Positions 6,772 to 15,966 of a stretch of 34,591 nucleotides of DNA are shown piece after piece. The notes beneath the pieces were generated by a model. It saw nothing but the letters and a program-made list of their open reading frames with translations, was not told the DNA's origin and did no database searches. This DNA comes from an uncultured Planctomycetaceae bacterium (GTDB lineage: Bacteria; Planctomycetota; Planctomycetia; Planctomycetales; Planctomycetaceae). The stretch lies in assembly GCA_913031625.1 (NCBI GenBank), contig CAJWGB010000033.1, positions 1 through 34,591 of the forward strand. The letters are read 5' to 3'. Position 1 is the stretch's first letter. Each line of letters starts with the position of its first letter. The translations under genes and the position numbers were made by a program.

Positions 6772-8037
6772 CTATTCTCCCTCAAGCCACTCAGAACGCT
6801 CCCTGCGAAGTCGCCGCAACGTCGCCTCACGAAATTGATTGTCAAAATCTCCCTGAGGGCGCCCGTCGAACTTCTCTGGTGCGATTACGCGGGCAATCTG
6901 CTTCCCGAATCCAATACTCGGATTCAGATAGAAGCTGAGCGTCGCCGCCTCCACTTTTTCTGCCCGATCCTCAACGGCTCTGCTCAGAAGCAGGTATGCC
7001 TGCCCGACGAGGACCGCCGCATCACTCCCTGCTTTCGCGACAGCCCGAACCTCAACATCCTTCAGTGCGCGTTTGAGAATCATCTCGGCCCGATCAGACA
7101 GCCCGAGCGCCAGATACCGCGAAGCAAGGTCGGTGACGAGGTCAAGTCCCTCCGGCCGCTCTTCGACAGCGGCAGACAGCCGTGCGATGTCCTGAGGAGC
7201 CAGACGTTCGCCGGGAGCAGTAAACTGATCGCGAATTTCCTGAGTCACCGGCCTGAGTGGACCAGCAGACTTCAGCTGAGTCTCCCACCTTCGAGCCGAG
7301 TGGATCACCCCATGCTCGTCAACAAAGAACGTCCTGGGAACGGCACCAAATCCAGTCGCATAGTCTGCATCCGCCAGAACTGGAAACTTCACACCAAACC
7401 GCTTGTAGTATTGATTGGCGGCAGAGACCCCATCGATATCAAGCGCTAACCCAACAATCGTGAAGTCGTCGTTTCCGTACTGCTCGAATTTCTGCTGCCA
7501 CACGGGCAACTGATTCCGGCAAAATCACCAACTGGCCCAACAGTAGAGGATGTAGCGTTTCCCAAGGAACTGCGACAACCGTACTTCTTCACCTTCCATA
7601 TTAGTCAGAGGAATATCCGGCACGGTCTGACCAATTCCGAATCCACGCCCCTTCCCCCATGCAGCGTTCCATGCCGGAGGAGCATCCGTCACCAGTTGTT
7701 TGGTCTGTTGAAGCACAACAGAGCCACCTGCTGTTTTCACGTCGATCTGCAGAGCTCTGGAAATCGATTCCCTCGACAGGAACAACGATTCGACCTCGCT
7801 CGAATCAGACGGTTCAAAAATGTGATTGTCGTTTGTGAGGCGAATTGGAATGCAGATTTCGCCATCATCTGGATTACTGCAGATGGTGAGCAGAGCCCTT
7901 GAAACGAGTTTGGCCTCCATTTTCCGGCTGGCTGCCAGATCGACCACATTGATGTACTGCTGCCCTCCCTTTTTCTGCACGCGAATCTGCGCAGCAGCCA
8001 GAGAAGAAAGCATCAGGGCGCAAATGAGCAAACGCAT
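6772..8037 (-). CDS. Secreted TlpA/thioredoxin-like protein with in-frame TGA (selenoprotein candidate)
   Basis: Read through one in-frame TGA (7527-7525), this encodes 421 residues. The start ATG at 8037 has GGAG 6 bases upstream and a signal peptide (MRLLICALMLSSLAAAQ). An N-terminal domain of unknown type precedes a thioredoxin fold of the TlpA/AhpC type: GIGQTVPDIPLTNMEGEEVR, then RYILYCWASW, TGA, FCRNQLPVWQQ, then VGLALDIDG and AVPRTFFVDEHGVIH. The last third is helical and TPR-like. The TGA falls where relatives have the first cysteine of W-C-x-x-C-R, although only one residue separates it from the remaining cysteine (W-TGA-F-C-R). The frame stays open for 250 codons beyond it with clear homology. 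A hairpin follows (separate entry). It is either a selenocysteine protein, a recent pseudogene, or carries a sequencing error. TGA is an ordinary stop elsewhere here, for example in ftr and the alcohol dehydrogenase. Confidence 0.75.
7494..7527 (-). promoter_or_regulatory. Candidate bacterial SECIS-like hairpin after the in-frame TGA
   Basis: On the minus strand, 14 bases after the TGA, GTTGCC (7510-7505) pairs with GGCAGC (7499-7494) in a 6-bp stem with one G-U pair, around the 5-base loop CGTGT. The loop starts 20 bases after the TGA and has G as its second base. As I recall, bacterial SECIS elements need a short stem-loop roughly 16-37 bases past UGA with a G in the first loop positions, so it fits. 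Short hairpins are common by chance, so this alone is not proof. Confidence 0.35.
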
Positions 8038-15389: not shown

Positions 15390-15653
15390 AAGTCGTTTGG
15401 CAGCCTTGCCCATTGTTAGCCGAGACGCGTGAGCGTCCGGGCGAAACGCACCGCCTGGCCGCTCGTTGACCCCGAGGCCCTGGCCTTCGGCTATCTGGTG
15501 ACAGCTTCATAGAAGATAGAGGAGCGGCGTGCGCGCCCAGCCGAGCACGCTTAAGAGTTGGCTGCCGGACTGGTCAATTCGAACTCGGAAGGCGGTTCGG
15601 CCGGAGTGCTTCCGCACTTCCGATGACAAGAGGCACTTCCTGCAGCAATACTT
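15390..15653. repeat. Dispersed repeat, copy A with 5' extension
   Basis: Copy A. Its core (15522-15653) runs from GAGCGGCGTGCGCGCCC to TGCAGCAATACTT and matches copy B at a constant 171-base offset with few substitutions and no indels. The left part (15390-15520) also matches copy C: AAGTCGT[T/C]TGGCAGC and CTTCGGCTATCTG...CAGCTTCATAG occur in both. The extension includes ACGCGTGAGCGT, with a small internal inverted repeat. The minus-strand peptide reading is noted under findings. Confidence 0.8.
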
Positions 15654-15683
15654 GATACCCGGGCTCGTGTGGTAGCCGTCCCG

Positions 15684-15826
15684 TTCATAGAAGAGCGGCG
15701 TGCGCGCCCGGCCGAGCACGCTTAAGAGTTGGCTGCCGGACTGGTCAAGTCGAACTCGGAAGGTGGTTCGGCCGGAGTGCTTGCGCACTTCCGCTAACAA
15801 GAAGCACTTCCTGCAGCAATACTTAA
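15684..15826. repeat. Dispersed repeat, copy B (tandem with A)
   Basis: Copy B repeats the core of copy A 171 bases downstream, beginning after TTCATAGAAGAGCGG. It differs by scattered single bases, for example TTCCGC/TTGCGC and GGCGG/GGTGG. A short stem (AGTGC with GCACT, loop TTGC) lies within it at about 15776-15789. The exact phase of 171 bases keeps a minus-strand frame open across both copies. Confidence 0.8.
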
Positions 15827-15966
15827 GGTGATGATCTGTGATGAGTCGCTGGAGCGTATTCTTTGTTTCGATGTTCGGCCGCTGTAAGTGGCTTCTCGTG
15901 ACAACCAATCGAAATTACGGCGACCTCATGCGCAGACACCCGTCATACAGATTCAGCGCAACAAAA

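Follow-up and report, generated by a model that had tools for sequence, protein, structure and literature searches.

The minus strand of the window, the whole 34,591-nucleotide stretch of DNA analyzed here, carries a gene that most probably encodes an exported ResA/TlpA-like selenoprotein, with selenocysteine (Sec171) inserted by way of a hairpin that follows its codon; we assign this reading as a whole a probability of roughly 0.93. Judged from sequence comparison, it is nearly certain that the gene encodes a genuine selenoprotein, and decoding of the UGA as Sec is strongly supported. The first-pass annotation had put the selenocysteine reading at about even odds; a TGA conserved in 8/8 sequences, a covarying hairpin and the presence of selA, selB and selD now speak in its favor. 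The features are as follows.

6772–8037, minus strand: putative selenoprotein gene, 421 residues, counting the TGA as Sec (from frame, homologues, Pfam and predicted secondary structure)
7975–8037, minus strand: probable export signal peptide, approximately residues 1-21 (read by eye)
7300–7635, minus strand: AhpC-TSA/redoxin domain, residues 135-246 (Pfam)
7525–7527, minus strand: in-frame TGA, proposed Sec codon 171, TGA in 8/8 aligned sequences with the window included
7519–7521, minus strand: TGC codon of the partner cysteine C173, Cys in 8/8
7494–7510, minus strand: putative SECIS hairpin GTTGCC-CGTGT-GGCAGC, with covariation in 20 TGA genes and in the clade of 8

Read from 8037 to 6772, the gene consists of 421 codons and a stop in a single frame that is interrupted once, by the TGA at 7527-7525, with 170 residues before the interruption and 250 after it. 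The codon lies in the context YILYCWASW-TGA-FCRNQLPVW, and frame, position, flanks and motif all proved to be as first described. The start of the putative signal peptide is preceded by GGAG at 8047-8044 (by eye), and export of the protein, for which the signal peptide read by eye is the basis, is probable. The protein is laid out as an N-terminal domain, a TlpA/ResA-like domain with U171-F172-C173, and a C-terminal helical part. Pfam AhpC-TSA (PF00578) matches at 59.7 bits against a cut-off of 26, and the match spans residues 135-246 across the TGA. Within the N-terminal domain, a pair of cysteines, C53 and C62 (TIC...EIC), is encoded at 7881-7852 on the minus strand; an internal relay or a metal site is possible.

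A structure was predicted from an eight-sequence input with Sec modelled as Cys (pLDDT 78.5, pTM 0.77). In the model, residue 171 is placed immediately before a helix formed by residues 172-187. By fold, the nearest solved structures are ResA and other members of the thioredoxin family, with TM ~0.7 by target and the match confined to the redoxin domain; 1-Cys peroxiredoxins (AhpE) stand lower in the list. By sequence, the nearest solved structures are likewise of the ResA/thioredoxin family (3kcm, E 6.1e-16). The ResA/TlpA oxidoreductases 1st9, 3kcm and 1jfu have the same thioredoxin fold, with ResA first by fold; their chains of 143-186 residues correspond to the redoxin domain of the window protein only. 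3kcm shares the VP-T-F stretch after the site, whereas the active sites of 3kcm and 4nmu are C-x-x-C and that of the window protein is U-x-C. The initial description of a TlpA/thioredoxin-like protein thus holds, in the form of a ResA/TlpA-like protein, by Pfam domain, sequence matches and fold matches.

On these grounds the protein is somewhat more readily seen as an exported disulfide reductase than as anything else. The alternative that survives best, a selenoprotein that acts as a peroxidase instead, is unlikely. It would fit the best domain match, which is Pfam AhpC-TSA, and the published neighbor family, which was first named Prx-like in the accessible part of PMC2398784. However, the peroxidatic motif of peroxiredoxins, given as T-x-x-C/U in the available text of PMC13188914, is absent: the site reads W-A-S-W-U-x-C-R, the residue three before U being A and not T, and the best solved relatives are ResA and the thioredoxin family, even though AhpE appears further down the fold list. 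A peroxiredoxin proper was rejected for want of T-x-x-U.

In the mechanism that we propose for a disulfide reductase, SelB with Sec-tRNA-Sec would bind the hairpin, and Sec would be inserted at codon 171. The reaction would take place outside the cytoplasm. There Sec171, which directly precedes the fold's first long helix, would attack a disulfide or other oxidized sulfur of a partner, and a U-x-C selenenylsulfide would form as Cys173 resolves the mixed bond. Which partner is used would probably depend on the regions to either side: the N-terminal domain, in which a further pair of cysteines is conserved, and the helical C-terminal part.

Relatives were sought across the family, in 170 genomes, with a match threshold of E <= 1e-20, and 7/170 genomes were carriers. 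Six of the 7 matches, that of the own genome among them, cover the site, and the TGA located there is the only one in each; the remaining match (L027) is a fragment from which the site is missing. An order-level search of 170 genomes, apparently identical to the family set, returned the same 7 carriers. A second genome scan gave 8 loci, namely seven relatives with TGA (L028-L034) and L035, a distant C-x-x-C protein. Five loci were common to both scans, and the non-redundant set comprises 8 sequences including the window, the seven site-covering homologues being 45-62% identical to the window protein. In all 8 the redox codon is TGA and x-C-R follows, within the common pattern W-[AS]-S-W-U-[FTS]-C-R; the middle residue of U-x-C is F in 6, T in 1 and S in 1. 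The sequences come from eight different genome bins, two of which (those of L030 and L032) carry one project name. Nearest to the window gene by tree is L031 (Fuerstiella sp.; 67% over 129 columns), whose genome (G017) belongs to the same genus as that of the window.

Codon-position divergence downstream of the TGA argues that the reading frame past it is under protein-level constraint, since the differences are rich in third positions: seven comparisons with the window gave 0.28-0.39 for first, 0.17-0.32 for second and 0.60-0.66 for third codon positions (0.31, 0.27 and 0.63 for L031). Among the 8 clade members no Cys form was found at codon 171; the alignment with relatives, which had been suggested as a check, placed TGA at this exact codon in 8/8 and Cys at the same position in L058, a distant homologue outside the clade with C-x-C (CTC). 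The first-pass annotation had cautioned that U-x-C, in place of U-x-x-C, could mean a small deletion, an error or a pseudogene. This concern is not borne out, as retention of U-x-C in 8/8 sequences indicates that it is the normal form of the clade and not damage. A deletion in a C-x-x-C site private to the window gene was ruled out, the same spacing being present in all 8 and in 7 U-G-C relatives.

It is accordingly very improbable that an ordinary TlpA protein has had its Cys codon damaged, whether as a pseudogene or through a sequencing or assembly error. The assembly is indeed a draft of 444 contigs, and L033, one of the relatives, carries additional stops in the upstream part of its matched stretch, yet the same TGA and U-x-C recur in 8/8 sequences from eight genome bins, on which a pseudogene or error was rejected, and the hairpin described below covaries.

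The 5' part is incomplete or disrupted in three of the relatives, L031, L033 and L034, the last of which also runs out at a contig end. The disruption in L033 (L091) lies upstream of 5325; its matched stretch contains four TGA codons, the Sec codon included, and one TAA, which suggests that this copy has decayed or been frameshifted, either in the genome or in its assembly. The contig of L034 (JACZYK010000273.1) is binned as Bacteroidetes and bears a gene of the planctomycete clade, reflecting either a binning error or transfer. None of five window proteins tested had a match beside the gene in the 7 relatives, and flanking genes are shared among relatives only between L031 and L033; with no neighbor matched, gene context gives no function. 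Elsewhere in the window, an ORF at 15507-15908 contains two copies of a repeated peptide, EVRKHSGRT...RVR.DQSGSQLLSVLG.ARTPL, and is probably an intergenic repeat.

The hairpin downstream of the TGA consists of GTTGCC (7510-7505), the loop CGTGT (7504-7500) and GGCAGC (7499-7494). It begins 14 bases past the TGA, its loop lies 20 bases past the TGA with G as the second base, and the stem has one U-G pair. This 6-bp stem and its loop had been noted from the window alone, and they covary in 20 genes. The gap-free SECIS alignment, which is phylum-wide, includes the window and every fetched TGA locus, each genome once (8 clade members, 7 U-G-C genes and 5 U-x-x-C genes). In a shuffle test that is inflated by the relatedness of the sequences, 97.1% of the 140 cells of seven hairpin pairs were paired vs. 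81.0% after shuffling (0/500), cells with double-sided changes numbered 21 vs. a shuffled mean of 6.7 (0/500 as high), and the covariation score was 0.437 vs. 0.140 (0/500). Sliding the partner by 1-3 columns, a control that preserves relatedness, lowered pairing to 33.6-64.2%. Two weaker measures gave less: pairs with double-sided changes numbered 3 vs. 2.7 shuffled (reached by 352/500), and further pair types numbered 10 (reached by 22/500). In the clade of 8 alone, 94.6% of cells were paired (9/500), the covariation score was reached by 4/500 shuffles, and the two weak measures were reached by 50 and 37 of 500.

Positions 7504 and 7501, first and fourth in the loop, covary as a further, possible inner pair, being C-G in 13, G-C in 6 and A-U in 1 of the 20 genes (columns 13 and 16). 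Pairing of these bases would in effect reduce the apical loop to GU or GG, with one more U left unpaired, an arrangement that we take to resemble the loop of the E. coli fdhF SECIS. Codon choice also agrees with a SECIS: outside the hairpin in these genes, 46% of Leu codons end in TG and 66% of Gln codons are CAG, and inside it, in the clade, Leu is CTG or TTG in 8/8 and Gln is CAG in 7/7. Folding of single sequences offers weak support, and conservation carries the case. The window segment folded alone gave a z of -1.68, with 12/200 shuffles folding at least as well. In 40-base folds the hairpin was the minimum-energy structure in 1/5 sequences, because an upstream CUGCCGC competes; in 54-base folds it was present in 13/20 by our reading, and in 3/8 of the clade. 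Taken together, the comparative data indicate that the hairpin past the TGA has the behavior of a bacterial SECIS element.

These data also bear on the view that the UGA is a true stop that separates a short N-terminal protein from a separately started downstream protein. A TTG start is available at 7509, just past the TGA, and the mechanical ORF list cuts the gene in two there. TTG 7509, however, encodes the Leu with which the conserved LPVW begins, and a protein started at this point would lose the first part of the thioredoxin fold; moreover, the codon is TGA in 8/8 and never TAA or TAG, and it stands at the redox position with a SECIS. We consider two separate proteins highly implausible.

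For a selenoprotein, the genome should also provide a decoding apparatus, and three of its genes were identified in the own assembly, a draft that is 96% complete. selA scores 506 bits, selB 320 (over positions 2-575 of 581) and selD 246, in each case above the curated cut-off and with no internal stop. selD forms part of a single 723-residue ORF (337-2508 of L019) with no internal TGA, the front part of which is pyridine-nucleotide oxidoreductase-like by eye. selC was the one member of the expected sel gene set not found in this draft: tRNA-Sec was not detected by Rfam, by pattern, by DNA similarity or beside selA. The best RF01852 match among the RNA candidates scored (150 of 938) reached 46.1 bits, below the cut-off of 47, and is tRNA-Ser according to ARAGORN; the best DNA-similarity match was 17 bases inside tRNA-His. 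In related genomes, by comparison, tRNA-Sec was found in 9/9 (seven of the same genus and two of other genera of the family) at 72-80 bits, with ARAGORN in agreement. An assembly gap would be the simplest reason for the missing selC. selA is present in 70/170 genomes of the family and in 7/7 carriers, an outcome that would have a chance of ~0.002 were the genomes independent. They are not: within the genus selA is present in 8/8 genomes, including three without the window gene at E <= 1e-20.

The same genome contains 27 AhpC-TSA matches, 23 without TGA and 4 with one in-frame TGA, which in all 4 frames, the window gene included, falls at the redox motif. The other three are AhpC-TSA-type frames (L093, L102 and L104 on contigs C252, C219 and C7) with the TGA in TGGU, NWUPHC and LTUPPF, respectively. 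The TGGU frame is peroxiredoxin-like, the NWUPHC frame is Prx-like, and the LTUPPF frame presumably resembles deiodinase-type selenoproteins; all three are probable selenoproteins of this genome, which, with its sel genes and four TGA-bearing redoxin frames, looks like a regular Sec user. By eye, L104 and three of the five U-x-x-C genes (L072, L076 and L078) share an HWNN motif and a late C-terminal Cys pair, and different Sec redoxin heads may on this evidence carry similar tails.

Reading of the UGA as some other residue (Trp, Cys or by a general suppressor), or a changed code, could draw on the tRNA-Sec missing from the own assembly, but it can be set aside with little hesitation: selA, selB and selD are present, the AhpC-TSA matches are TGA-free apart from those with TGA at the redox motif, and TGA terminates 9 of the 23 long window ORFs that we picked as likely genes, in line with the earlier remark that it serves as an ordinary stop elsewhere in the window. 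A code change was rejected on these TGA stops and the TGA-free matches.

The kind of protein is already known, and its closest published counterparts are a 'Prx-like (UGC-containing)' family of 46 Sec sequences in the available text of a 2008 Global Ocean Sampling study (PMC2398784) and a 'UGC-containing TlpA disulfide reductase family protein' with motif UGC in Table 1 of a 2026 review (PMC13188914, accessible portions), which also cites PMC5029168 for this family; neither 'UGC' nor 'TlpA' appears in the available main text of PMC5029168. The family as described in these excerpts has in common with the window protein a TlpA/AhpC-TSA domain, the U-x-C spacing and the placing of Sec at the first redox position. 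Where that family has G as the middle residue, the window clade has F, T or S; it is set apart from the papers' sequences by description. One domain with different Sec motifs is treated as different subfamilies in the accessible part of a 2022 review (PMC9312934). More remote comparisons, by description only, are a single Prx-like UXC sequence in Table 3 of a 2005 Sargasso Sea study (PMC1088965, in part), which is U-x-C as in the window protein, and algal TlpA selenoproteins, which have the TlpA-type name in common with it and are, in the available text of PMC7539508, eukaryotic and said to bear a hemerythrin domain. None of the terms UGC, TlpA and UxC occurs in PMC12013277. Selenoproteins are recorded in two of three planctomycetes in the accessible text of PMC4807772.

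The best NCBIfam match of the window protein is NF041054 (WAxxUGC_long, ResA-like WAxxUGC motif-containing protein; E 1.1e-23, redoxin domain). At 84.2 bits for the window protein and 83.6 for L029, both fall below its cut-off of 300 bits, whereas 7 U-G-C relatives score 105-307 bits, with 1/7 over 300; the clade lacks the U-G-C motif of the model, having UFC in 6/8, UTC in 1/8 and USC in 1/8. As the ORF list splits the gene and the NF041054 cut-off is missed, annotation of this gene as fragments is likely. The F/T/S-middle clade was not met in the selenoprotein literature searched, which included few subscription papers, and the supplement of PMC4807772, beyond its available text, might list a relative. 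A search for selenoprotein and Fuerstiella found no paper, and one for selenocysteine and Planctomycetota turned up nothing on the window clade in titles and the beginnings of abstracts. As judged from these comparisons, the window clade is a new branch of a known protein kind.

The placement of this branch was examined with a phylum scan, which listed 46 matches in 40/392 genomes. Thirty were read as loci (L056-L085); the 16 left out comprise one inside L079 and others among which 8 have TGA, one of them three times. The tree began with 38 sequences, from which L035, L057 and L074 were dropped as unmatched by the motif expression (L035 and L074 are C-x-x-C types and L057 is without a redoxin domain), leaving 35 redoxin domains. 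The 8 U-x-C sequences form one clade with 100/100 support. A branch with 98/97 support separates 12 C-x-x-C proteins from the other 23 under a midpoint root only; among the 23 are a U-x-x-C group (100/100), one C-T-C and two D-x-S sequences, and U-G-C sequences in two groups, neither of which joins the window clade with support.

In the 7 Planctomycetota U-G-C genes the SECIS is placed as in the window gene. By eye, the U-G-C and C-T-C relatives consist of an N-terminal domain with a Cys pair, a redoxin domain and a C-terminal helical part and appear to share the window protein's plan, the N-terminal pair being spaced C-x4-C in the 7 U-G-C relatives and L058; profile matches extend into the N-terminal part for L058 and L059 only. 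Pfam TPR matches were obtained in all four relatives scanned, L058, L059, L060 and L062, the U-G-C genes accounting for three of these (3/3 scanned, with L059 alone over the models' cut-offs), whereas no TPR match over cut-off was found in the window protein or the 3 other clade members scanned. In two sequences, L066 (FASW-D-N-S-R) and L080 (WASW-D-A-S-R), D and S replace U and C, so that both redox residues are lost. In L057 (G242:C119), again by eye, the N- and C-terminal domains seem to abut, with neither redoxin domain nor Sec site between them, and the N-terminal Cys pair is kept.

A broader scenario, which we regard as doubtful but offer tentatively, is that Planctomycetota have a wider superfamily of exported proteins with three domains, of which the window gene's clade is a Sec-only member. 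Across the superfamily the redoxin site would have been remodelled repeatedly (U-x-C, U-G-C, U-x-x-C, C-x-C, D-x-S, or redoxin domain absent), and in the Sec-only clade a tight U-x-C selenenylsulfide would act in concert with the conserved N-terminal Cys pair, forming an internal relay.

The present analysis adds a Sec-only U-x-C clade to an uncharacterized selenoprotein family, and covariation within the loop lends comparative support to a closed two-base apical loop in a bacterial SECIS element. With the natural U-x-C, C-x-C and U-x-x-C relatives it can be tested what a thioredoxin fold gains from selenium and from having a single residue between the redox positions. If the superfamily scenario is true, the finding of no Cys version among the 8 sequences would mean that the function of the clade may depend strictly on selenium.
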